NCBI GenBank assembly: GCA_028532985.1
Contig: JANCIK010000001.1
Span: 186,001 to 250,000, forward strand
Direction: 5' to 3'
DNA length: 64,000 bases
Source of the DNA: Stropharia rugosoannulata
Lineage: Eukaryota > Basidiomycota > Agaricomycetes > Agaricales > Strophariaceae
Part shown: piece by piece, positions 39,927-61,159 of the stretch
How the letters are laid out: each line of letters starts with the position of its first letter
How positions within the stretch are numbered: position 1 is the stretch's first letter
Translations under genes and position numbers: made by a program
Notes under the pieces: model-generated
What the model saw: the letters and a program-made list of their open reading frames with translations, nothing else
Told to the model about the DNA's origin: nothing
Databases searched by the model: none

Positions 39927-42489
39927 TTAATCTGCACGAATATCCAGGTGAACACCGCGAATGCTATTCAAGACGCCAAACACATCCCTGAGACGTGCTT
40001 CGTACTTTTCTCTCTTTTCCAAGGATGGACGTTCATGGAAATCATCTGCAGGGGTTCTAAATTTAGCAGTCACCAGAATGTGAACATCTTTCTCTTTTAA
40101 ATTGACGGTGTGGCCGGAGTGTGGGGCATGGCTTAGTGAAAAGCAGTACTCGGCCAAATAGCGCAACAAAGCAGTCATGCCAACGTACTCGGGGTAACGG
40201 CACAGAGCCTCAAGGCGGGTTTCGTCGTCATTGTTGCTGCAAAGTAGTGTTCCACTGAAAGCAATACTGACGCTTATGCTGCGTCCACGAGGAGGAGAAA
40301 GAAGAGTTATCAGACGCGTGAATAAGGAAGGACCATTGAGGTCGCTCATCTCGAATATCTGATAAATGCGAATGGCCAAGGACTCGAGCTTCGGAAGTCT
40401 TGTATAGTCAATTGCTGTTATTGGACGATTTATTCCTAGAAATATGAGTAGGAGAAGCATATATTATCACAATGCGAAACCTACCCTTACGAATGCTAAG
40501 GCTCAATGAGTGGAGAGCAGTACCAAAGGAATATATGTCTTCGTACACCGTGGTAGGGATATCATCGTGCATGCAGGTGAGGCAGAGACGAGTCAGTTGA
40601 GGACGGAGAGATTGCAAAGGAAGAATATTTGCAATTTCAGTCGTAGTGTCTGACTCGAGTACTTTGACATTGCAGAGTGGAAAGGTATGGCCGTTGCCAT
40701 GATCGTTGTTGTGACTCTCGGATATGGCGGGTGGAGCCAAAGAACCTGTAAACTTGACAAAGCTTAGTACTATATGTGAAAGAAACACAGATGAGCACAG
40801 CGAAGGGGGGATTTCTAAATGATATATGTGCAAGGACTTCAGATTTGGATGCGCGCAGGCGGCGTATAAAGCAGGAAGGAGGTGAGGGAAGCGTCTAGCA
40901 ATCAAGCAGTCAGATGGAAGCAATGAACCGTACATATATAGGGAACTGCAACCGGCCCCTTTCTCATGGAAGACCGCATTGAGGATGGACAGAAAGCTGA
41001 ACATAATGCTGTGGTGAGGTTCACCTCTCCCAAAGTTGACCCACAAAAATTTTACATGCTGAGACACTGTTTGGTCGGCTGTCCATATAGGATTTGTGAG
41101 TATTTTTCCTAAACTGACAAGCCGTCTGCGGCGGTCAGAGTCGCTGCCTATACTGATATTGCACCAGCTAAATCTGCGTCTGTTTGCAAGGTTGCAGAAG
41201 CGGTGAGAGAGAAGTGCAATAGTCGAGTAATGCATCAGCAAAGTGTGATTTGGCTATGAAGCACTCCACAGCACTCTATAGCACCATAGTGCCATAGCAT
41301 AGGGTACCCTCTTTATAGCGCTCTGTGAGTTGACCTAATTCTTTATAGTAGCTACCAAATTTATAGAGCGCTATGGAGTTCTTCATAGTAGGGCATTAAC
41401 TCAATAGCATGCTGTGGACTGCTATGGATTGCTATGGAACAGCTCTCGGTTACTGATGGCAATTCAAAATTATCTCAGAGCTAATTTTGAATTTGAATTG
41501 CCATGCACGCAGCACAATTAACGAGAAACAAGCAAATAGTTGTATTGTTTGTAAGATACATATTATTTTACACATTTATATAGGAAGTACATATACAGTA
41601 AAGTACATTGTAGAAAAAAATACACATATGATGCATGCTCACCAAGTCTCCGTAAAAAGCTGGTGCAATTGTCATCAGTATCAATATGACATGGGGCCAA
41701 CAAGGGGGATGTACTTACCTTTCCAAACCCCAGGGATTGTCGAGATGAAAGTATTGGGGAGAGCCGGTGCTGAATATAGTGAGAAAGAGGACAACGGATG
41801 GTGGTGGTGGAAGGGTGCTAAATGTCACAATGATCAATGATGCCGATGTGGATGTATTGCCATTGGCAAGCGCCGCATCTGGCACCAGGACCCCGGAGCG
41901 GAGAGACCGAACAGTGTCATACCAACTTATGCTTACCTGTCTGTTATGCACAAGTTACGCACATGAGAGGTACCGTCAGCAAAGCAGTTTGTTGGCCATG
42001 AGAGCTGAATATATAGTGTTGAGTATTTGAGGGCAGGTTCAGTGTACTTAGACTTGAAACAAGTTTACATGCTGTTAAATATGCCTCATCAAGTTCGACT
42101 CAGTATACAATAAGTACATAGCAATATGGAAATATTTGGGAAGTATGGACTGCTTCAAAGAAATCATAGCACTTTGTAGTGCTGTATAGTGCTGCAGAGT
42201 TGATGCTATTTTTACCATTATGTCATTTCCCGGGCATGTCAATTGTATGTCCCCTTCGAATGATATGCGGCCTCTATAACTACTATGACTTGCTACAGAA
42301 TTGCGAGCATTCTATGATTTGCTATAGCAAAAATCACAGTTTGCTGATGTGGGGGGATTTCTTGTCCGCCCCAATGTCGTCTGCGGAGGCGATGACAATC
42401 GGCTCCAGTATCTCGAAAGGAAGAAATATCGTCTTCTTTTTTGTTGGTTGATCAGGGGTGATTTTTGCCTTCCGAAGCCGGCGAAACAT
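39927..42489 (-). pseudogene. F-box gene split by a 1.1-kb element
   Basis: The N-terminal part is 42489-42352 (MFRRLRKAKI; F-box IFLPFEILEPIVIASADDIG; KKSP). It is separated from YSTIALLSHRF at 41230 by the element at 41233-42349. The rest of exon 1 ends at 40485, a 49-nt intron covers 40484-40436, and exon 2 is 40435-39927 (GINRPITAIDYTRLPKLESL to VHLDIRAD). If one copy of the CA duplication is kept and the element is dropped, the parts join in frame to 464 residues with no stop. The 60-kb paralog shows the uninterrupted order SPHYSTIALLSRRF. As it stands the gene cannot make the full protein, unless the element is spliced out or excised. Confidence 0.85.
41233..42349. mobile_element. CATCAG-ended inverted-repeat element, 1117 bp, non-autonomous
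   Basis: Left end CATCAGCAAAGTGTGATTT; right end, complemented, CATCAGCAAACTGTGATTT. Both sides carry TG (41231-41232, 42350-42351). The arms are packed with words like TGCTATAG, CTATAGCAC and CTATGGA in both orientations (41250-41450, 42160-42330). No transposase is recognised. The ends and the TG/CA duplication match those of the 12.9-kb Plavaka-type element, which may supply the transposase. Confidence 0.85.
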
Positions 42490-46800: not shown

Positions 46801-47211
46801 TATTCAGTTTACCCATACTCGTAGTTTTACACCATGTATGCCATGAAAAACGTCAAATAACTGATCAGTATACGCTTCATAACTCTGTTTCTGTTCAGGT
46901 AATAGACGTATGACGCATAGCTGTCCCGTGACTCGAAACCTGACAGACACCCGAATCCTAAATATGTGCTTCTGTGCCGCTTCGCCAAAGTGGAGACCTT
47001 GCATTGATAGGAAATGCCGTTCGGCTAGGTAGTGCAAAAGCGTGTACTTGCCAATGTACCTGGTATAAGAACGCAGACAATCAGCGATAGTTTGATCGTT
47101 GTCATCATGGCATTCTATTGTTCCCCTGGCGAAGACTTCGACTTCAATTTCTTGCCGACGGGGTGGTGGTAGAAGAGGGATAAGGCAAGTCGATAAAGAG
47201 GGACCGTCCTG

Positions 47212-47234
47212 CATCAGGAAAATCACTTTTTTGC
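47212..47234. repeat. Left terminal inverted repeat of Plavaka-type element
   Basis: Matches the complement of 60064-60086 with a T/A difference at position 12. It lies inside the host codon series for MNDQDGPSL. Confidence 0.9.
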
Positions 47235-47514
47235 CGAGAGCTATTTAAAGACATTTTAGTAACTTTTAGTCCATCGTTTCAAACTAGATTTAATTAAAGC
47301 CCCAATCATATCTTTAAATAGCTTGATAGGTCTTCGGCAGTCTTTTTAGCCTTGCCTTAAACTAAGTATAGCTTTGTAGGTCTCTGTAGGTCTCTTTAGG
47401 TCTCTACAAGTCTTTTTTATGTACATTTTCTTATAACCATATAAAACTTGTACATTCCACTGTAAAACCATAAATTCTATAGCTATGGGGTAAATTCTAA
47501 TCTAATTACAAAAA

Positions 47515-48587
47515 CTAACTAAAGAAAAGTCGCAACTGGTGGTCATTTCTATGCAGGTCTTGTCGGGCTCTACTATACAAGTTGATTGGTCGGCAAACCC
47601 ACCCATTCCAACTCTGGGTATTCTGATCTAATACTTGTCGTTCTGCTAGAAACTGTATGCCATCACTGTAACTTTGATCGTCCTTTTCATGCTTATCCTG
47701 GATTGTCAGAAAGTAGACTCGTTCCAGTTGAGGCATTGTCGGCGACCAAACAACAGACACAAGTGAGGAAACGAAGTCCCTCATATAACCCATACTAGGA
47801 TTGGTGTCGTACATATGGTAATGTAGCAACCGAGGAGTATAGATAATGACTGATTTCAGAAATGAAAGACGACCTAAAGCAGAGGCCCAGTCTCTAGAAC
47901 ACCATGGATATAGTCCAAGACGATTATCCTAATATAAAGAATATAAGTAAAGATAAGGCAACATAGAAGTATACAACTAACCTGTATCGGTAGTATTGGC
48001 ATACGACAGTCATATATAACCTGAAGGTTGACTAAATGGGGACCCAATGAATCGACCCATTTATCCAAAACCTCCGAAACCAACCAAGCAACATCACCAC
48101 AGTGAATTTGTAAGGCTTTTACTTGCATATTGGAGAACATAATCGCATAGAGTTTCACGATTGTATTCTGTTGGTTGTTGACTCTGGGAATTCGGAACTG
48201 CAATGCCCAAATGTTAGCAAATGCATTGGTGCAGCTGGAAAGGCGATGCTGTCGGTAGAAACTAGTAAAGTCTTCACAGAATTGGAGCTGGGTTGCATAT
48301 TGGTCCAGTGATGTCAGCGAAGGCATAGTGTTTCGGCTTGCTAACCAAGCCTTATATCCCAACTGCCGAAAGACACATCCTGACTTGTAGCTAGGCAGCT
48401 CCCAAAACAAAGCTTCTAAAATAATATCCCGAAGCTCAAAGGGAACTATTACATTTCACTACATAAGAAAGTATATCACAATCCAAAATAAATACAACAT
48501 ACTTTTCGTCCATCCAGGAGCAATAAGCTCCTGAATCTCTTGCAGTGTTGAGGATAATATGTATAGCCATGAAAGTATATAAGCCAT
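47515..48587 (-). CDS. F-box-like cargo protein
   Basis: Three exons: 48587-48503, 48445-47982 and 47928-47515, with GT-AG introns of 57 and 53 nt; 320 residues. After MAYILSWLYILSSTLQEIQE the segment IPFELRDIILEALFWELP is an F-box-like core. A long middle follows with leucine-rich character (VKALQIHCGDVAWLVSEVL, LVNLQVIYDC). The end reads LERVYFLTIQDKHEKDD. It is the leftmost gene of the transposon, transcribed toward the left end and in the same direction as the dioxygenase gene. It does not align with the host F-box gene the element has split. It may be a captured host gene; whether it serves the transposon is unknown. Confidence 0.65.
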
Positions 48588-48959
48588 AAGGTGAATGCTA
48601 TGTATTCCGACTAATAGCAGCAGATACGATTAGTAAAGCTTATATTGAGCTGGCATATAAACATACACTTAGAAAACAGTTCAAAATACACCTGGTGGGT
48701 TTGCCGACTAGCTACTATGGGCATTTTGATAGAAAGAAAAGAAGTTGTTGTAGACATTGTAAGAAATGTATGGGTCGATTGAAACAGCACAGAATATAGT
48801 AAGCCTACAGCGAAGAACATTTACTGTTTGCGTAACTATAATGATCACCTGATTATTTACCCAACTTCGCTATACCAGTACATAATGGGTACCGTTCGCA
48901 ACCATAGTACAATAGTAGAATGTACTTTGTAAATAATAATGGCTAGGAGCTTTAGTCTA

Positions 48960-50585
48960 CTAATTATCGCCTTCATGATTCAAAGGCCCCTCAGCTTCAA
49001 CTTCATCAACCATATTCTCAAACTCCTTTCGGTTTACCTTTCCCTCACAATACTTCCTCCAAGCTGCTGCTAAAGTGTTTGAAGTGACGATAGCAGCGAC
49101 AAGCTGCTGGAAATCAGGGTCTTCAGTGGTCGGATCAACATTGGGGACTCCTGTTCCATGAAGCCTTTTAGGCTGCCAGACAATACAAGTGTTCGTTGCT
49201 TGCTGGATACGAATCCCATATTCTGGAAGAAAGAAGTTTCCTCCATAAGACACACAGTTATGGGAACGATGCAGGGTAAGCATTGCTCCATATGTGTGGG
49301 GGTGACCTTCCTTATGCATATGCCTATAAGTTAAAGTGGATGATCAGAAATGGAGATATAGCGACAAGAGAAATATACCTTGAATAATTTCTTGTGATAA
49401 AAGCTCCTGGTGGGGCAAGACCAGTACCAAAGAAATCATATGACTCATGGGGCAGAGACACAGTATACTTTGTAACATCGGTAGTTGGAGCCTCCGAATC
49501 ACCTTCTTTCATTGTCCTCATCGATGATTCTTCATGGCACTCCTGGTAGTTGTTACCTTCTCCATCGTTTGAAGGAATTTTAAGCACCTTTGAAAAGTTC
49601 TTGATATCAGTCGTCACCTCCTCAGGAAGCTGTTTCTCCATAAGCTGCCATATAAAGGCAAACAAATTGGAACCCTCGATGTTGGCCTCAACCCTTTTAT
49701 CGTCCGAAAGTTTCTTCTTTGATGCGACGATGTTTCGGACCCAGCCAAACTCGCATCGGCTTCTGGCACCTGCAGACCAACCAAGCTGAACAAGCTTCCC
49801 AGGATCTTCTTTCTATAAGAAATATTAGTATAAGTTACAAAGACAGTAAACAAGAATACCCTAAGATTTCGGCGAATGTTAGTCTGAAACTCAGCAGTAT
49901 CCTTCGCCCATTTGAGAGCACCCTTATGCTTGCAAAAGCCACGAATAACAACCCCAACAATTTCGCCAGTTTCAGAGTCTTCGAGAATCACATTCTCATC
50001 GGGACCAATGTCCAAAGAAAGTCTAGAAGGATCGAGCAGATGTAATGGCTTTCGAGGAATCCTAGCATCGGCCTGTTTGCCTATTGTAAAATGGTCCCTC
50101 CATTTGTCCATGATTTCCTGATTCTCGGTGATGATATGCATAGGGGGGGGGTAGTAGTTGCTTTCAGCCAGTTTCTGAACCTTTACCCTCTTGATGCCTT
50201 TAAGAAACTCGTCCCGATCCTTGTTAGTCCAGTTAAGTCTAGTTGCTTTGGTAAAGTTGGATTTTCTCTTTTTATACGACTTTGCTGCAGTTTTTCCAGC
50301 TTTATAGGCAGCAAACAAAGTAGGGAAGCGTGTATGGCGAGGTGGAAGAGCAGATGTGATTGTTTCATATATGCTAGGAAAGGAGCTGCCAGAGAAATAG
50401 ACTGCACCGAGTTCGGAGGCTTTGGCAGAAGCTGCAAAGGCAGCTCTATTATTAGATTTGAGATAGCGAAGAGCAGTAGTGTCGGACTCTAGAAACTGAA
50501 GTAAGGATTCCAGGTCTTTCTTGGAAATGGTAGAAACAGTAGATTGGGCAATGCGAGCTTTGGCTGGCTTCGACAGGCGAGCCAT
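48960..50585 (-). CDS. TET/JBP-like 2-oxoglutarate/Fe(II) dioxygenase (cargo)
   Basis: Three exons: 50585-49860, 49812-49379 and 49323-48960, with 47-nt and 55-nt introns; 507 residues. The N-terminal half is basic (KAGKTAAKSYKKRKSNFTKA, DEFLKGIKRVKVQKL). The middle has FGWVRNIVASKKKLSDD. The last third is a double-stranded beta-helix. The candidate iron ligands are H390 and E392 (HKEGHPHTYG) and H442 (LHGTG), with YGGNFFLPEYGIRI and TCIVWQPKR between them. That order and spacing, and linkage to a transposon, match the basidiomycete TET/JBP family, which oxidises methylated pyrimidines in DNA. H-x-E replaces the common H-x-D. Alternative: another 2OG oxygenase family. Substrate not shown. Confidence 0.65.
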
Positions 50586-50589
50586 TCTG

Positions 50590-51000
50590 GCGATGTAGTG
50601 GTTACTGATGAAGATTAGATAAAGAATTAAATTTGGCGATCAAGCTTGAACATCGATCAGGTAAGCAGCACCAGCCAAATACCACCACTGCCGTTACTCT
50701 TTCTGTCCTGTTTCTGTCTTTTTACTGGCTTTGGGCCCACTCTACCCTTTCCTGCTAGTGGATCTAAAGACATTGGTTATACACTTCCTACAGGCTATAG
50801 TGGGGTTTTAATCTTGCTTAAGTCATAGTGAGATGTGGATTGCTAGTGTCTGGGAGATAACCATAGTGCGAAGGGTATAGGCTGGGGATAAAGTACAGGC
50901 CACTTGGAAGATACTTTGGCCACTAATAAACTAATGAACATTGCTGGTCTACATAGATTATACAGCAGATAAGTGAGGTAAGGACTGCCCAATGCATTAT
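50590..51000. other. Upstream region of the leftward cargo genes
   Basis: No frame of interest. It lies directly before the dioxygenase ATG and the tandem array, so it probably contains that gene's promoter. Confidence 0.4.
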
Positions 51001-53070
51001 TAGGTTAAAGACATTAATATGCCCTGCCCCAGCCCTTCTTGAACACCCACCCTCAACCTGCCATGAGCTGCCATTCTGCAGCCAACACAAGGGCCCATGT
51101 CACTTATCAAGCATCCTGGGCCGCATTCCATCACCGTGCAGTCATGTTGAATGATCACAGGGCATCTTGCCCAACTGATCAGCACCCTGCCCTCCTGCAC
51201 CCATTGACCAACACTCCGCCTCGATCTGCCCTTGCCACGGCAACAAGAAGCACCCAGGATGTTCGGGCAGCATCCTGGGCTGCTGTTCATTGCCCTACAG
51301 TTGTTTGACATGACCACAGGCCGCCGTAGCCAGGTTATTTGCCCCCCGCCGTCTCTAATCCATGACCGAATGCTTTGGCCCGTCCTTGCTTGACACAGCG
51401 GCAGGAGCATCCAGGGCGCTCGGGCAGCGTCCTGGATGCTTCTCATCGCCCTGCAGTCGTGCCGAATGACCGCAGGGCGTCGTGCCCGGTTGCTCCGCCC
51501 CCGCACTCTGCTGCCCCCATCACATCCGGCCACCGCCTCGACCCGCCTTGGCGCGGCCAGAAGACATACCCAGGACGCTTGGCCAGTGTCCTGGGGCTCC
51601 TTAAATCACACTGCGGTCGTGTTGAACGACCGCAGGGCGTCGTTTGCCCCGGCTCCGCCCCCACCGTCCTGCCCTCGACCCCGCCGCCTGCCGCCTGGAC
51701 CCGCGCCTGCCAGGCCCAGGAGAGCACCCAGGACGCTGGCAAAGCGTCCTGGGTGCTGCACGATGCCCTGCGGTCATTCAACACGACCGCAGGGCGTCGT
51801 TGGCCCCGGCTCCGCCCCCGCCCTTCTGCCCTCGACCCCTCCGTCCGCCGCCTCGACCCGCCCTTGGGCGGCCCGAAGACGCACCCAGGACGCTGGCAAA
51901 GCGTCCTGGGTGCTGCACGATGCCCTGCGGTCATTCAACACGACCGCAGGGCGTCGTTGGCCCCGGCTCCGCCCCCGCCCTTCTGCCCTCGACCCCTCCG
52001 TCCGCCGCCTCGACCCGCCCTTGGGCGGCCCGAAGACGCACCCAGGACGCTGGCAAAGCGTCCTGGGTGCTGCACGATGCCCTGCGGTCATTCAACACGA
52101 CCGCAGGGCGTCGTTGGCCCCGGCTCCGCCCCCGCCCTTCTGCCCTCGACCCCTCCGTCCGCCGCCTCGACCCGCCCTTGGGCGGCCCGAAGACGCACCC
52201 AGGACGCATGGCATGCGTCCTGGGTGCTGAACGATGCCCCGCGGTCGTTCAACACGACCGCAGGGCGTCGTTGGCCCCGTCTCCGCCCCCGCCCTTGTGC
52301 CCTTGACCCCGCCGCCTGCCGCCTGGACCCGCGCCTGCCAGGGCCAGGAGAGCACCCAGGACGCTGGCAAAGCGTCCTGGGTGCTGCACGATGCCCCGCG
52401 GTCGTTCAACACGACCGCAGGGCTTCGTCCGCCCCCGCCGTCCTGCCCTCGACCCCGCCCCCTGCCGCCTGGACCCGCGCCTGCCGGGCCCAGTAGAGCA
52501 CCCAGGACGCTGGCAAAGCGTCCTGGGTGCTGCACGATGCCCTGCGGTCATTCAACACGACCGCAGGGCGTCGTTGGCCCCGGCTCCGCCCCCGCCCTTC
52601 TGCCCTCGACCCCTCCGTCCGCCGCCTCGACCCGCCCTTGGGCGGCCCGAAGACGCACCCAGGACGCATGGCATGCGTCCTGGGTGCTGAACGATGCCCC
52701 GCGGTCGTTCAACACGACCGCAGGGCGTCGTTGGCCCCGTCTCCGCCCCCGCCCTTGTGCCCTTGACCCCGCCCCCTGCCGCCTGGACCCGCGCCTGCCG
52801 GGCCCAGTAGAGCACCCAGGACGCTGGCAAAGCGTCCTGGGTGCTGAACGATGCCCCGCGGTCGTTCATCACGACCGCAGGGCGTCGTTGGCCCCGGCTC
52901 CGCCCCCGCCCTTTTGCCCTCGACCCCTCCATCCGCCGCCTCAACCCGCCCTTGGGCGGCCCGAAGACGCACCCAGGACGCATGCCATGCATCCTGGGTG
53001 CTGCACGATGCCCTGCAGTCGTGTTGAACGACCGCAGGGCATCGTGCACCTGCCCCATTGTCCTTGCCCA
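51000..53070. repeat. GC-rich tandem array, 157-bp unit, about 13 copies
   Basis: The word GCACCCAGG recurs at 51724, 51881, 52038, 52195, 52352, 52498, 52655, 52812 and 52969: 157 bp apart apart from one 146-bp unit. Diverged units begin near 51093, 51250, 51407 and 51566. Each unit contains two inverted repeats. The first is GCACCCAGGACGC and GCGTCCTGGGTGC around a 7-base loop; the second is GCCCTGCGGTC and GACCGCAGGGC around a 9-base loop. Long overlapping open frames exist in all phases because 157 is not a multiple of three; I do not call them genes. The array separates the two divergent gene blocks of an otherwise AT-rich transposon. Confidence 0.95.
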
Positions 53071-53302
53071 ACTCACTACTCAACCACCCCTTCCACCAAT
53101 AACATTTACATATCCCCTCTTATTATTGTATTTTATCTTTACAATGCATTTCATGTATTTTGCATACTCAATCAATCAATATTATATTTGCAACTCTGAC
53201 CAACGTTTCCTGTTGTAGTCCCGAACCATTAACAATAATCACATGATTTATTTACCAGCTTGAAACCTTTTACTTGACTTCACTTTCGAAACCCCGATTT
53301 TC

Positions 53303-53974
53303 ATGCTTCCCAATAGTGATGAGGTTGAAAGCTCAGTTTACTATGAGCAAGAAAGAGTAATTACTATAACCTTGCCATTCCCGAAACAGCCTGCTAATTA
53401 CTAGTACTTATAGTATTTGCTTGCTCCTGCTACTTCCGATGATGCAGCTCCTGAGAACATTGACTCTTCCGACTCTTCCCAAGTATGTATTTCTCTATGT
53501 CTATTCCGAATCTACTAAGTCCTACCAGCATTGTCTGTCCTTGGATTATGCAATACTCCATCCTGAAGACTTCTCAGACCGTAGTGAATATTACAATGCT
53601 TATACTTTGAAATATAATAGATGGCCCCAATTTTCGGATGAACAGGTATGTACTATTTCAGATCCGCACTTATACAAACTGCCTCCAAACTGCTATTGCT
53701 AATATACTATTCATACTATTTAGCTTACATTGCCATATTGGCCCAGACCAGCTGCCAACAAAAGACTAAAGGCCAAATGTATTGGGCTGCAGCAAAGCTT
53801 CGGTACCATCGGCGATTGTATCGTAAGTCAAAAGCTTTGGAAGCCATTTATCGCCATAAGAGCAATAAAAGAGTAAAGCTTCTTGCATTGCTTCAACAAA
53901 AGCAGCTTCTATTAGCAAAAACGATCAGATATGCAAAGAAGACCTTAGCTTACTCGCGGAAATATACTATATAA
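53303..53974 (+). CDS. Small basic cargo protein of unknown function
   Basis: Four exons: 53303-53356, 53414-53482, 53520-53645 and 53747-53974, joined by GT-AG introns of 57, 37 and 101 nt; 158 residues with no internal stop. The N-terminus is acidic and serine-rich (MLPNSDEVESSVYYEQER, ENIDSSDSSQ). The C-terminal half is strongly basic and helical (KLRYHRRLYRKSKALEAIYR, QLLLAKTIRYAKKTLAYSRK), which could bind nucleic acid. It lies just upstream of and codirectional with the transposase, so it may be an accessory factor. I do not recognise the family. The 37-nt intron is unusually short; the model is tentative. Confidence 0.5.
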
Positions 53975-54130
53975 ATAGGTATGTTAAATTGATTTGGTGT
54001 ATATGGTTGGCAATCGTGAGCTTACAGTTTTTAATAGCACAATTGTAATTGGTACTTTAGATATATGTGTGAGAATGCAACCGAAAGTTGTACCAAAACC
54101 CCCACTATCTCTCTCAGAGTCTGATAAGCA

Positions 54131-57100
54131 ATGCCCAACTTTGAATGCCCTGCTGGATGCGAAAGATTTTTCAAAACCTGGGGTGGGGTAAATGCCCATT
54201 TAACCTCATCACGATCTTGCTCCTGGTATATGGAGGAAAAACTAGAGGATTTGAATGCTGAAAACACCTACGAGATACAAGAAAATGCCCCAATACGGTA
54301 CGACCTTGGATCCAACGACAACATTGCTAGCAGTGCCCTGAATACTGGACAGCAAGCTAGTAACCAAACACCCGAAGAATTAGATGGCGAAGATCTTGAG
54401 GACTTTTTTCATGAGGAATTCGACAATATTGTAGATGAGTTTGCTCTTATTCCAGGTCCTGACGACTACTTGGAGGGTGAGGCAGGCCCAGGTCCTCAAA
54501 CTGCTGCTTATCGCAGTAGAGTGCTGTCAATGAAGCGATTACTAGATGATGATGATGACGATGAAAGGATTGAAGAAGAGCATCCTACTGCTGGTAGAAT
54601 TCTTCGATATCAAGCAACCAGTAACCCACATATCCACACTTTGGATGGCGATGGTGATGTTCATATGCTTCAAGAGGCAGTGGATCCCAAGTTTCATCCC
54701 TTTCATTCAGAGCTAGATTGGAAAATAGCTCAATGGGCAGTTAACGATGGGCCAGGCCATAATGCATTTGACCGATTACTTAAAATTCCTGGGGTAAGTT
54801 CAATACTACTAATACAGTTGTATTTACTAACTCAAACTATCAAGGTTGTCGAAAAGCTTGGTCTCTCATACCATAATATTCGGGGTTTGCACAAGAAACT
54901 TGACTCTATGCCCGAGAAAGCAGGCGAATGGAAGACTCGCAAACTAAGATTTGCCGATAAACCTAATGAAGTATATACTATTCGGCATCGTAATCCGATA
55001 CAAGCCATCGAGTCTCTTTGGAAGGACCCCCATCTGTCGCCTATGATGAAATTTAAGCCTAAGAAGGTGTATACTAGTCCTCGTAAAGATGGGCGAATAT
55101 TCAATGAAATGTGGACAGGTCAATGGTGGAGTGTTCTTCAGGTATGTTATATTCAAATCACAATTCTTGATATAGCAAGTTGTATTTACTTCACTTTAGA
55201 GTCGACTTCCAGTTGGAGCTACTTTAGCTCCTGTCATAATTGCTACAGACAAAACCCAGTTAACCCAGTTTTCAGGGGGAAAATCAGCCTATCCTGTTTA
55301 TCTTACGATTGGAAACATCCCTAAAGCAACGAGAAGAAAGCCCTCTTCCCATGCTACCATCCTTATAGCCTACCTTTCAGTTGACAAAATCAACCGATCA
55401 CAAATGAGTGAAAATGAACACCGATCTAGAGTTCAAAGGCTTTTCCATGAATCGATGAAAATCGTTTTAGAACCTCTCATTAAAGCTGGAAATGAGGGCA
55501 TAGAAATGGCAAGCTCTGATGGTGCTACTCGTCTTGTTTTTCCTATCCTTACTTGCTATGTTGCCGACTATCCTGAACAATGTCTTGTTTCTTGTACGAA
55601 ATATGGGACTTGTGTCAAATGCAAAGCAAAGGCCAATAATCTTGGAGATGAAGCACTATCGGAGCTCAGAACTCAGCGATGGACAAAATCCACCATTGAA
55701 GAGGCCAAACTTTATTCGGGAGACAACCAGAACCAGTTTCATAAATATTGCATGTCCCATGATGTTGCAGGCAGTGTATTCAAGCCTTTTTGGGAAGACT
55801 TTCCTCTGACCGACATTCACCAGTCATTAACACCTGATGTATTACACCAGCTTTATCAAGGGGTCCTAAAGCATCTAATCTCATGGTGTGGAAAGCTTTT
55901 ACAGAAAGGAGAGCTAGATCGGAGAATTCAAAGTCTTCCACCTTCCTTTGGAGTTCGCCACTTCAAAAATGGATTTACATCTCTCTCTCAAGTAACTGGG
56001 CCTGAACGGAAAAACATGGCTAAAATTCTTCTAGGCTGCTTAGTCGGAAGTATTCCAACTCAAGCTGCCCAGGCAATTACAGCACTGCTAGACTTTATCT
56101 ATATTGCCCAATATCCCACCCATGATACAACTACTTTAGAGTATTTGACCGATGCTCTGAAGCGGTTTCACCAACACAAAGCATACTTTCTTAATGTTGG
56201 TGTACGAGACAACTTCAATATCCCCAAGTTTCACTCTTTGCTGCATTATGTTGATTCTATCAAGCTTTTTGGGACAACAGACAACTATAACACTGAGATG
56301 TTTGAACGACTACACATCGACTTTGCAAAGGATGGTTGGAGAGCAAGTAATCAACGGGATGAGTTTCCTCAAATGGTTACTTGGCTTTCACGACAGGAAA
56401 AAGTTACTGGCTTTGAAGCAAATCTACAAATGAATACACCATTAAATAAACCACCAAAATCAGTCAAATCCCTTGCAAAATATCCCAATTATCCTAAAAG
56501 AATGCTTTCTCTAATCCAGGAGAAGCATAATGCTTGTGGCTTTATTCACTCACTGAAGGTCTTTATTAATGGTCTCCGGTCCCAGCCTTTATCGCAACAA
56601 GCTTTAGCTGAGGCTACTTTACCCTTTACACGAGTTGATGTCTACAACATACTTCGCTTTAGTCCTACCAGTCTTGATGACGATAATACAGGGGAAAAAG
56701 ACTCAGTGAAAGCTATTCCAATATCACAACAGAACAGTTTAGGAAAATTTGATACTGTTATAGCTATGGTTAATGATAAAGCAGAGTCAACTGGGCTTAT
56801 AGGTATGTAGATTATATGTTGCTATAGCACTTCTAATTCTTTTAATCAAGGCACAAGAATAGGAAGAGTAAAGGTTATTTTTACTCTTCCGAAGGTTTTG
56901 GATACTCGCTTAGGGCAACAAGATGCCCCTCACAATTGGCCAACTTCGCCATTAGCATATATTGAGTGGTACTCACCAATACCATCCCAGCCATCTGTTT
57001 CTAATGGTAACATGTATCTAATCAAAAAGATGGAACCTTTAGCAGGTGCCAATCCGACAGGTACTCAAGCCTGGTGCTCAATTATTCCAGTCTCAAATAT

Positions 57101-57245
57101 TCGGCAAAGTTGCATGCTATTTCCAGTATTTCCCAAGCTTGCCCCAATGCCTAATGGCTGGACATCTGATAATATACTTGATAGATGCACATCCTTTTTA
57201 ATTAATAACTGGTCTAGTAAATATGCATACCAAACTATATGGTAG
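54131..57245 (+). CDS. Plavaka transposase
   Basis: Four exons: 54131-54793, 54845-55141, 55200-56802 and 56851-57245; 985 residues with all phases closing. An N-terminal C2HC finger (C6, C10, H23, C30) in FECPAGCERFFKTWGGVNAHL is typical of Plavaka proteins, as is the acidic region after it. The core carries the family signature ATDKTQLTQFSGGKSAYPVY followed by GNIPKATRRKPSSHA. Candidate catalytic acids are D337 in TDKTQLT, D533 in LTPDVLHQLYQGVLKHL, and E686 or E689 in NTEMFERLHIDFAKDGWRAS, matching the DDE layout of CACTA-related enzymes. It would bind the CATCAG ends and cut and join DNA in the nucleus. No damage is seen, so it may be active and could also mobilise the 1.1-kb element at 41.2 kb. 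Confidence 0.92.
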
Positions 57246-57429
57246 AGCTGTACCCGGTAGTCGCTATCTTTTTATATTATATAAGCCATTCCAGCTTAGT
57301 CAGACCGGAAATAGTTGCTTGTATCGTGTCTTTCCCTTCGTAAAATATACACCTGGCAATTACTTCCTGCTTATAAGCATTCATTTTTGCAAGCTTACTC
57401 ATACTGCTTTCTATTTGTTTTCTATCCCT

Positions 57430-59307
57430 ATGGCCAACACCAGAAGCAGTACCTCCCAAGCAAAGTCTGGTTCCAGCAAGTCGGCAGCATCGAAAAGGAA
57501 GCCAGGAGCTTCTAACAAGGGAAAGAATTTAACTATAAATGATATACCTCAGGACATGATACAACAGATACTCAAGCAGCATGCGAGTACTTCAAAGCAA
57601 GCTGAGGCTGAGAAAGAAGAAGGTATGTATTTGTCTCCTTGCTAAAACGATACTAATGGGTTTGGCTAGAGATTACTGCTCGCAACAAAAGACTTATGGG
57701 CGAGGAAAACGAGAATGAAAAAGACTCTGATGGTAATGAAGAAGACAGCAATAGAGCAGCTAAACGACCAAGAGTTGACAATCTCGACAGGGAAGAACTC
57801 GACATAGGCAATCAGGTTTTTGGCGAAGCGACAAATACTAACAGGCACGATGGGGATACTACTGACGATAGTTTGGAAGATGGGGAAAATGAAGGCAATG
57901 AAGAGGATCATGACGATGGGGTTAATGATATTCCTATGGCCGGAAATGAGGTATGTTCTCTACTAGTACTATTGGTATATGCTATACTTATTCTTCTTAT
58001 TGTATATAGATTATTATTTTATCGGATTCCGAGCATAAAGTAAGCACTTTGTAGCTATTCAATATAGAACTAATCTTGAATAATATTCTATAGTCATTGA
58101 AGAGGCTTGGGACTCGGCGATCCCAGGAGTCTGTGGCAACCTCTTTCAAGAGCTCTGCACCATCGTCAACAACCTCCTCTAAGACTTCTGCTTCGTTTTT
58201 GGAAAGTCAGAACAGTGGGTTTTCCTTGCACTCAAAGAAGGTGACGAAGCATAGTTTGCCACCATATGTTATGGATACAGCTATAGAGGCGAAGAAGTAT
58301 CTTCGCTTTAACATGGTGTATAGCCCAAGCTTCTGGACTGCTGGGGTAGGTCCAGACCGAATCGATGCTTGCTGGACAGCTTTCTGCGAAGCTGCTAAGC
58401 AAGGCGATAATACCCCCCTTGTTATCCAGGTTTCAAAGGAAAGAGCTACAAAGCCACTCGTCATTCGCTATGTGAGTACAAGTTATATTATTTCGTTTGG
58501 TTAAGTATTTTGACTAGTACTAGATCTCCTATGCTCGTTCACAATTCATGAGCTCGGTAATTACTGCTGCCCGTAGTGCGACCCAGAATGCATATGGGCT
58601 TGGTATTAATAAGAAGAAAGATCAAGAAATTATCACCTGGCTCCTGGAAAAGGCGAAGTTCATGTACGATCAAGTCGATACAACTGTAAGTAATATTTTT
58701 TCATAATTTAACATACTAATAGGAGTATTAGGCCAGGACGACTGGAGGACAGCCATTCAAGTCAGAGAAGATGCTTCATATAATTGAAGAGTTGTGGTTC
58801 AAGACTGCAACACGAGCAAATAGTTCGACGACTCTGGTTACTCGGCAATTAGCAATAGACAAGGCATTACCACCATCGATGTTTGCGATTACTTTAGCAG
58901 CTGTATGTTTCTATTAATGTTACTTTATCGCTAGTCTATCCTTACTCACAATTGGTTTAGATGGAGCATTCGTTACAAGAGCTCAAGGAAGGCCATGGTA
59001 CAAAGAGTCGGAAGAATTTTGACGAAACGACTATTAGAGTTTTGTACAGTGCTTCTGCTATTACTTATTACCTTGCACTACTAATCATATTGCTATAGAT
59101 ATAGTCGCCATATGGGTAACTGGATGGTTCTCGAGCAGAAGTCTAGTGGATGGGCTTTAAAGTGGAGGCAAGATGCTTTCCAACAGCTATGGTAGGTTTA
59201 ATTTGTTCGCTGGTTTTTTCCTTACTAATTATGTTTATAGCTCGTCAGATATGTTTATTGGGTATGACGAAACAGATGATTTAGCAGATTTTGATTTCGA
59301 ACTTTGA
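57430..59307 (+). CDS. DUF6532-like cargo protein
   Basis: Eight exons: 57430-57622, 57670-57950, 58094-58471, 58524-58685, 58732-58902, 58961-59043, 59099-59191 and 59241-59307; 475 residues, every junction in phase. The N-terminus is low-complexity (MANTRSSTSQAKSGSSKSAA), then an acidic tract with a basic nuclear-signal-like AAKRPRV. The C-terminal domain runs from LPPYVMDTAIEAKKYLRFNM through ITAARSATQNAYGLG, ELWFKTATRANSST, ALPPSMFAITLAAMEHSLQE and RYSRHMGNWMV. This sequence of motifs resembles the agaricomycete DUF6532 domain, whose function is unknown. The exon 6 donor GTACAG is non-optimal. It is codirectional with the transposase, 185 bases after its stop. Confidence 0.7.
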
Positions 59308-59309
59308 AT

Positions 59310-60063
59310 GCGACTATACCAGTACTACCAGAGGCAGAGCCAGCATTACCACTGGATTTGTAGTTCATACTATTATCTAGCCTTCTTTTATAATGCCTTC
59401 TTTTATAATCGTTCTTTTGATTCCCTGTATACTTATTTTAGATAAAAGGCGACATTTAATACACTATTTTGAGTGATTGCAGAGTCTCATAAGATCTCTA
59501 AATAGCTTTCTAAGGTTGCTAATGTGCTATAGAGAAGTATTTTAAAGATACTACGAGATATCACAAGAGTCTTCTTTGTACTCTTTTAGGTCTTTCTAAA
59601 GCTCTAAAAATTTTTATATTTTTAAAAAAAGACATTATGTTGTGCCTTTATATCTTTAAGTGGGTTTATTTGTTTCTCTTAGTGTCTACAAAAGCTATTA
59701 ATATGCTATATAAAGACCTTATTTGAATCTTTTAGGATCTTTAAATATGCCTGATAATGTATTAATGTGGTTTTTTTATATCTTTTAAATGTTTAGCCAG
59801 GTCTTTTATTATACTTTATTTGAAGCACTTGATGTCTTTTGATTGCTTCAAGAGCGCTTTTTTTTGCTTTTTTTTGCTTTTTTTAAGAACTGTGATGTCT
59901 TAAAGTACACTTTTTATTGTCTTTTATTGCTTCATAAAGTCTTTTTAATGTCTTTTTAACTTTTATACCTGGAGACTTTGCTTTTTAAGTCTCCTAGAGA
60001 CCCAGGTCTCCTGGGGTCTTTTTAAGTCTTTTTAAGTCTTTTTGAAAAATTAAAAGACTTTTT
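59310..60063. repeat. Right subterminal region of Plavaka-type element
   Basis: AT-rich and dense in TCTTTT, AAGTCTTTTT and GAGTCTT-like words. Similar words (TAGGTCTCTGTAGGTCTCT) occur in the left subterminal region 47330-47420. Likely transposase-binding repeats; no gene. Confidence 0.6.
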
Positions 60064-60086
60064 TCAAAAAAGTGTTTTTCCTGATG
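60064..60086. repeat. Right terminal inverted repeat of Plavaka-type element
   Basis: Ends CCTGATG at 60086 and is followed by the TG duplication. Inverted match to 47212-47234. Confidence 0.9.
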
Positions 60087-61159
60087 TGATCGTTCATGTT
60101 GTAAGTATGATGAATGAAAATTGTTATAGAAGTGAGTTTTGGAAGTCTTTGATAGTCTAATTCGACTGCTGGATCATGCAACCCTAGACATAACATAAGA
60201 AGGAGACCGAGCAGCTGTCAAGTTAGGCTTACCGTCGCGGATGTTGAGCTCCAATGTCTGAAGAGCGGTACCAAAGGAATATATGTCTTCGTATACAGCG
60301 TTCGGGATGACATTATTAAAACAGTGAATATTAAGGTGAGTCAGCTGGGGTCGAGGAGATTGCATTGGAAGGATATTTGCGAGATCTGTTCGATCATCTG
60401 AAATTAGAACTTTAAGATTACCGAGTGCAGAAGCGTGGCTATCATGGTCAATGGTATCGGGGCTCGATCGGACTGCAGGTGGAGTCCAAGAGCTTGTAAA
60501 CTTGACTTCATCCAGTTTCAATTCCGCGATGAAAGCGGATGAACACATTGCAAGTGGGATGTCCATCTCGGATATGTCCAAGGATCGCAGGTTTGGATGC
60601 GTGCAAGCGGCATACAAGGCAGGAAGAAGTACTGAAAAACGTGAAGTTACTGATCTGTTGAAGAACGAAAACCTGCAATGCCACATATGTAGGCTACTGC
60701 ACCGTGCCCCATTTTTATGGAAAAGTGCGTCAAGTATGGACAAAAATGCCCTCCTAGAGTTCCTCGAGTAACTACTGCTCCCAAAGTAAATGGACAAACA
60801 CTCTATATGCTGAGCCACCTTCTGATCGTCCGGCCACAAAGAGGTTGTGATTATGTTTCCTAGACTCAGAAGCCGTCGGCGGTCGGGGGAGTCACCGCCA
60901 ATATCTATATAGCAGCATCTGAAGCGACGGCTGTTTGCAAAGTTGCGAAATCGGCGCGAGAGAAGTGCTATGGTTGAGTAATGTGGGGATTTTGATTCGA
61001 ATAAAATGTCGTCTGCTGAGGCGACGACAATTGGCTCGAGTATATCAAGGGGAAGGTATGGCACTGTCTTGGGGGCGATTTCGTCCCTTCTGTCTGAGGA
61101 AGGCAGTCCAGATGGCGATTTGGGTTTGAGACGCCAGCGAAACATGGTAGCTACCATCT

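Follow-up and report, generated by a model that had tools for sequence, protein, structure and literature searches.

A probable PlavakaB-type DNA transposon with a TET-like oxygenase gene, present in many copies in Stropharia rugosoannulata

What kind of mobile element carries a gene for a TET/JBP-like oxygenase into a host gene of Stropharia rugosoannulata, and what might the oxygenase do for it? Both questions are raised by an element lying within a 64,000-nucleotide stretch of this basidiomycete genome (the window; GenBank assembly GCA_028532985.1, contig JANCIK010000001.1, positions 186,001 to 250,000, or C1:186001-250000 in an assembly of 47,968,167 bases in 20 contigs). Its sequence makes it very probably a young copy of a PlavakaB-lineage DNA transposon of the cut-and-paste type, within the CACTA/EnSpm-like CMCT clade, with TET cargo; the lineage was assigned by comparing the transposase domain, the motifs, the CATCA..TGATG ends and the duplication length with the published description. 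The transposase matches the Plavaka domain PF18759 over the whole profile (E 8.5e-110, positions 1-325 of 325), in agreement with the initial annotation, which had called the element a Plavaka-type transposon. Its motif series runs D337, D443, C458(2)C461 (CVKC), H665(3)H669 (HSLLH) and E686, where the D and E assignments are our own reading, and this order matches that published for the CMCT clade, with C(2)C and H(3-4)H between the second D and the E (PMC12730594). Among the 20 copies described below, DYPE, CVKC, HSLLH and EMFE are kept in all and DKT in 18, the remaining two being gapped there. Fungal TET genes were linked earlier mainly to Kyakuja/Dileera/Zisupton (KDZ) transposons (PMC12730594), which would favour a KDZ identity, but we give that reading almost no credence: Pfam returned no KDZ transposase domain up to E 1, and it is refuted by the Plavaka domain, the CATCA ends and the 2-bp duplications, those of KDZ being 7 or 8 bp long (PMC12730594).

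The limits of the element were confirmed to the base by perfect inverted CATCAGGAAAA ends, the terminal inverted repeats (TIRs), and by an identical TG dinucleotide on either side, both as initially described. The TIR 11-mer occurs 371 times in the genome (174+197), against 16 occurrences (6+10) of the same string read backwards. When the element and one TG are deleted, a minus-strand host frame of 475 aa is unbroken, whereas the filled allele stops at 352 aa. A paralogue of the host gene at C1:225939-226463 (37% identity) covers query residues 300-472 and thereby spans the junction near residue 340; since the alignment crosses the junction, the empty-site frame is no accident, and the restored frame together with the paralogue indicates that the insertion disrupted a coding exon. 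A protein search of the same genome revealed no second, uninterrupted copy of the host gene at high identity. The host gene had been announced as an F-box gene whose frame is restored on removal of the element; the restoration stands, while the F-box label lacks Pfam support, as the host protein matched no Pfam family at cut-off and F-box families were absent from the listing to E 5. The interrupted gene belongs to a divergent family residing mostly on contig C1, where 20 of the 26 matching stretches lie if the gene itself is counted, and a further family match lies within the window at 40480-41235.

The genome holds many relatives of this copy. A search with the TET protein produced 101 matched stretches, grouped manually into about 28 loci and one relic, and a search with the transposase produced 64 matched stretches from the 46 of 264 candidates that were scored, so that a missing transposase match is no proof of absence. 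By manual reading, 22 loci matched both proteins, and 21 of them, the window included, were examined; this set excludes the locus at C7:351-359 kb, and its selection favours complete copies. Both termini were found in 20 of the 21 loci. Local deletions and insertions aside, all 20 are collinear with the window copy, which bears out the expectation of further copies with the same TIRs and gene order. At the remaining locus (c12a) neither terminus was found in the stretch examined, and a miniature inverted-repeat transposable element (MITE) is nested inside. Outside the central region, most of the longer BLAST segments share 95-98.8% identity with the window copy, whose nearest copies are c12b (99.86%) and c12d (99.85%). 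Matching 2-bp duplications flank 16 of the 20 copies in eight sequences (TG, TT, TA, AG, AA, GA, CA and TC); the flanks are unmatched in c11a (CA/TT), c10a (AT/CT), c9c (AA/GT) and c3 (TA/CA). Except for some fragments and relics, the cargo-gene matches listed fall inside copies, and the objection that the cargo might sit at fixed non-transposon positions found no footing in them. Matches to the F-box-like cargo gene without a TET match were seen at C13:1439303-1440378 (95-97%) and C7:3338211-3339071 (65-82%), which are probably fragments of further copies. At C9:217700-243000, two copies that are 99.93% identical lie head to head in opposite orientation, about 160 bp apart.

The oxygenase carries HKE at residues 390-392, an HxE in place of HxD, and a downstream distal histidine (H442); HxE is the hallmark of PE-type TET/JBP oxygenases (PMC12730594). 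All 20 copies code for HKE, and H442 could be read in 17, the other three having a one-base gap just upstream. When a 149-aa C-terminal piece was compared with 177,635 PDB sequences, the best match was CMD1 (5-methylcytosine-modifying enzyme 1, 7cy4), with an E of 0.43 that is not significant by itself; the alignment nevertheless places HKE under HLD and LHGT under VHGT, with both metal-binding motifs in register. A different part of the protein, residues 229-324 only, matches PF20515 (Tet-like 2OG-Fe(II) oxygenase) at 6e-4 for the whole oxygenase, below the curated cut-off, and at 1.6e-4 for a 274-aa piece. Because both metal motifs fall in the CMD1 register and the Pfam match concerns another part of the protein, the TET-like identity is persuasive, and we consider the TET/JBP assignment remote but well founded. 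The gene had initially been called TET/JBP-like, a label supported by the HxE motif, the CMD1 register and PF20515 and qualified by the sub-threshold Pfam score and the distance of the relationship.

Five spliced genes are arranged in two divergent blocks, with cargo gene 1 (the F-box-like gene) and the TET gene on the minus strand at the left and the small gene, the transposase gene and the DUF6532 gene on the plus strand at the right (Table 1). The initial annotation had proposed this layout with all five genes intact; genes and layout were recovered, but only three frames of the window copy (F-box-like, TET and transposase) are open, the other two being damaged. Compared with the 12 copies whose small gene is open over 164 aa, the window copy lacks 4 nt of that gene; its DUF6532 gene has lost 1 nt, which exchanges the final ~20 residues and brings a stop at 59307 (485 instead of about 504 aa). 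Across the 20 copies, the frame is open in 10 for the F-box-like gene, in seven for TET (five of 507 aa, two of 492 and 509 aa), in four for the transposase, in 12 for the small gene (counted as a stop at 164) and in eight for DUF6532 (seven of 503-505 aa, one shortened to 454); all five frames are open in one copy only, c10b. The DUF6532 protein matches PF20149 (E 2e-22), as its earlier name implied. Cargo gene 1 and the small gene matched no Pfam family above cut-off, and the listing for cargo gene 1 contained no F-box family to E 5, so that its former F-box-like label, retained here as a handle, is without Pfam support; a remote similarity is possible, as HMMER filters discard most matches above E about 0.1. 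Scans against NCBIfam and PHROGs returned nothing relevant. Two alternative gene models were rejected: an intact small gene using a CAG acceptor, since the other copies use a TATTTAG acceptor and the 164-aa frame is broken here, and a start of the F-box-like gene at MAYILS, whose ATG is ATA in most copies. Because that alternative first ATG is unconserved among copies, the four-exon, 358-aa model was adopted for the F-box-like gene.

Decay of the copies is strongly biased towards CpG. Measured against the majority base in the 20 copies, CpG has changed to TpG or CpA in 884 of 490x20 cells (9.0%) and the same transition has occurred at other C/G positions in 460 of 3753x20 cells (0.61%); gapped cells were kept in the denominators, changes shared by descent were counted per copy, and one replaced stretch in c11b inflates the non-CpG changes. 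Singletons in coding sequence amount to 0.314 per CpG site versus 0.028 per other site, and the observed/expected CpG ratio is 0.50-0.71 in the element genes versus 0.91 in the window's first 40 kb. The pattern is what deamination of 5-methylcytosine (5mC) leaves, and the element thus appears to undergo CpG methylation by the host, in whose genome C5-methyltransferase domains (PF00145) were matched on C3, C4 and C6. The decay may also record how strongly each copy was methylated.

Several kinds of relatives lack part of this equipment. Plavaka relatives of about 60% identity occur at five loci without a TET match, two of which were examined in part; none of the cargo genes (TET, F-box-like, small, DUF6532) was found in the 7.0 and 6.5 kb examined. 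The one at C12:2102500-2109500 has a transposase about 59% identical in collinear pieces (tblastn, residues 321-865) and one CATCA-type end, whose partner was not found; no AAAGAC repeats were present in the 228 bp tested at a TET-less end. At C2:187130-195550 lies an 8,094-bp internal-deletion derivative, flanked by CA duplications, that has lost the transposase except its last residues and retains the F-box-like, TET and DUF6532 regions; overlapping pieces of its TET match suggest a frameshift. A 1,055-bp MITE is matched over nearly its full length at least 40 times, counting the query, with 94-97% identity in the other matches (40 of 141 candidates scored). It has the same end motif and shares 97-140 terminal bases (88-93%) with the right end of the element, and AAAGAC/GTCTTT occurs 18 times, against about one expected, in each of two MITEs. 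Within the limits of five MITEs examined, including the one nested in c12a, there is no CpG at all, although base composition predicts about 20, and no TG/CA mixture was seen at 981 gap-free dinucleotide positions of five copies, so that the master copy of the MITEs probably had no CpG to begin with. We considered a second TET lineage at C11:1900507 and ruled it out, the stretch C11:1899300-1901800 holding only a decayed TET relic of about 33% identity with many stops. A DUF6532 relic (70-77% identical) lies about 16 kb from it, at C11:1882971-1884545, and the two are possibly the remains of an older TET-bearing family.

Taking the ends, copies, duplications, gene order, catalytic motifs and CpG-biased decay as observed, we infer an activity, a substrate and an anti-silencing role for the oxygenase as follows. 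The transposase would act on the CATCAGG..CCTGATG ends, and excision and reinsertion would generate 2-bp duplications of varied sequence; the duplication footprint is observed and the mechanism is taken from the family. Host CpG methylation, to judge from the CpG decay, would silence and erode the copies. By oxidising 5mC on element DNA, the oxygenase would allow the transposase and the accessory genes to be expressed, and it would act in trans for the whole family and its deletion derivatives. The DUF6532 protein or the small protein might, as a guess, be a DNA-binding helper at the AAAGAC-rich ends, like TnpA of CACTA. We lean, by a little, towards 5mC oxidation against silencing as the role of the oxygenase. 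The initial annotation had proposed that the enzyme could alter the methylation of the DNA of the element or of its host. Kojima (Biology 2025, 14:1741, PMC12730594) likewise argues that TET genes aboard transposons provide an escape from methylation-based silencing, and describes their function as experimentally unvalidated.

A number of results weigh against a TET-type oxygenase that protects the element from methylation. The PF20515 match covers the N-terminal half of the profile and stays below cut-off; the whole oxygenase had no PDB match up to E 10; and when the 274-aa piece was used, two ribosomal proteins, aligned elsewhere, outranked CMD1, which came third (E 1.5). A single-sequence AlphaFold model reached a mean pLDDT (predicted local distance difference test) of 35 and was discarded, so a double-stranded beta-helix like that of CMD1, CcTET and NgTET is not shown by the model. 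In a shared-variant test, in which pooled counts are set against a singleton-based spectrum with low power, selection on TET was not demonstrated (omega 0.76, p 0.32); the transposase gave omega 0.52 (p 0.0065). The TET frame is broken in 13 of the 20 copies. Moreover, the CpG observed/expected ratio of the transposase region is 0.50 in the TET-bearing element versus 0.54 and 0.57 in two TET-less relatives; as it is no higher than in these relatives, there is no sign that TET lowered long-term CpG loss.

Some of these results would fit another account, in which the extra genes, TET among them, travel as passengers of the transposase and contribute nothing to transposition. The TET polymorphism is compatible with neutrality, most copies have a broken TET frame, and TET-less Plavaka relatives possess a transposase and no cargo in the stretches examined (two of five such loci, each in part). 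We nonetheless regard mere passage as unlikely: the catalytic residues and the gene order are kept across copies, the only copy with five open frames, c10b, carries TET, and TET occurs in many transposon lineages (PMC12730594), which speaks for a benefit. About equally doubtful is that the oxygenase is not an eraser of 5mC and makes a further modified base, such as CMD1-like 5-glycerylmethylcytosine (5gmC) or an oxidised adenine, which would mark or shield element DNA. CMD1, which makes 5gmC (PMC12730594), is the only named DNA-modifying relative among the solved structures, and the enzyme has HxE instead of HxD, the PE type for which Kojima raised non-canonical base modification (PMC12730594); against this, the CMD1 match, insignificant alone, may reflect only a common fold, and the Pfam scans recognised no other base-modifying gene aboard the element. 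It would be a long shot to go further and combine an HxE enzyme that marks the element with a non-canonical base and the CpG-free MITE into two routes round CpG methylation, the halves being independent guesses and the MITE half also explicable by old CpG decay of the master copy. Oxidation of 5mC against silencing keeps our slight preference.

The central hairpin array reported between the two gene blocks is real in the window copy, where its 157-bp unit is repeated 10.4 times, and proved to be a variable minisatellite instead of a constant part of the element. Measurements of the central region cover c12a and 19 of the 20 copies (all but c11b). Arrays of 157-159 bp units are present in nine of the 19, namely the window copy, c12b (31.1 units), c12d (12.1) and six others (2.4-4.5), while c9b and c9c have other repeats in the central region. 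The array is absent in eight (c11a, c6, c9a, c2, c12c, c13, c1a and c1b), which have about 1.15 kb of AT-rich sequence there, and it is therefore dispensable for spread. The 81 array matches listed by the genome search all fall in examined copies or next to the TET locus at C13:1234 kb, and the array is thus a family-specific minisatellite. The CpG ratio of the whole central region is 0.87-0.96 in the window copy, c12b and c12d, 0.67-0.75 in c4b, c10a and c7, and 0.30 in c3; since eight copies lack the array and the ratio is high in only some of the others, we ruled out, as a general explanation, an essential, protected, CpG-island-like promoter. Copy c13 contains a nested 2.4-kb non-autonomous CATCAGG..CGTGATG insert, to part of which the central 1.15 kb of the array-less c2 is 86% identical in reversed orientation.

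Table 1. Coordinates of the element, its insertion site and its genes in the window (position 1 is the first base of the window)
Feature	Position	Strand	Details
Host gene disrupted by the element	46804..61157 (limits approximate)	-	
Left target-site duplication, TG	47210..47211		Host frame unbroken once the element and one TG are taken out
Probable PlavakaB-type DNA transposon copy with TET-like gene, complete, 12,875 bp	47212..60086		Based on ends, duplication and 19 other end-to-end copies
Left TIR, CATCAGGAAAA	47212..47222	+	Inverted match at the right end
Cargo gene 1 ("F-box-like"), 358 aa	47515..48757	-	4 exons: 48757-48667, 48610-48503, 48445-47982, 47928-47515
TET/JBP-like 2OG-Fe(II) (2-oxoglutarate/iron-dependent) oxygenase gene, HxE (PE) type, 507 aa	48960..50585	-	3 exons: 50585-49860, 49812-49379, 49323-48960
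GC-rich tandem array of hairpin units	51426..53045		157-bp unit, 10.4 copies, between the divergent blocks; 0-31 units in other copies
Small basic gene	53303..53974	+	164 aa in 12/20 copies; frameshifted in the window copy
Plavaka transposase gene, 985 aa	54131..57245	+	4 exons: 54131-54793, 54845-55141, 55200-56802, 56851-57245
DUF6532 gene	57430..59363	+	9 exons; about 504 aa in other copies; PF20149
Right subterminal region, AAAGAC/GTCTTT-rich	59364..60086		12 motifs seen vs 0.9 expected (shuffles); last 97-140 bases common to the MITE
Right TIR	60076..60086	-	CATCAGGAAAA in inverted orientation, perfect
Right target-site duplication, TG	60087..60088		Identical to the left TG

The family offers a test bed for whether a transposon-borne TET counters silencing. 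One genome contains many similar, mapped copies whose TET frame is open or broken, together with TET-less relatives, and the same genome also holds a TET-keeping, transposase-less derivative and CpG-free MITEs with the same ends, so that direct comparison is possible.

How does the element compare with known systems? CMD1 of Chlamydomonas (7cy4) resembles the oxygenase in the register of its metal motifs, but at an E of 0.43 and with HLD where the oxygenase has HKE; to our knowledge, CMD1 is not transposon-borne. The TET-bearing KDZ transposons (Kyakuja of Coprinopsis and Laccaria, with relatives of CcTET) are alike in being DNA transposons with a TET/JBP gene, but differ in having another transposase, an AG-type HxD oxygenase and 7-8 bp duplications (PMC12730594). 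KDZ and Plavaka are both abundant in Marasmius oreades (PMC8290104), and Plavaka and DUF6532 domains are listed together for Ganoderma (PMC8955403). The closest systems are the TET-carrying PlavakaB families of Agaricus bisporus and Gymnopus confluens, which have 5'-CATCA..TGATG-3' ends, 2- or 3-bp duplications and an HxE, PE-type oxygenase (PMC12730594); our element shares with them the Plavaka transposase, the CATCA..TGATG ends, 2-bp duplications and the HxE oxygenase. The suggestion in the initial annotation that a Plavaka carrier of TET might be undescribed is thus superseded by this publication, according to which the association of TET with Plavaka had already been implied in an earlier paper. 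The main text of that article does not mention DUF6532, F-box, ORF or hairpin, and has "tandem" only in its references, and our searches of the open-licence PMC literature listed no description of this gene set. The TET-bearing Plavaka kind is therefore already published, and the element is a well-resolved new example of it, which adds to that main text a copy-level anatomy, the extra genes, strong CpG decay and CpG-free MITE relatives.

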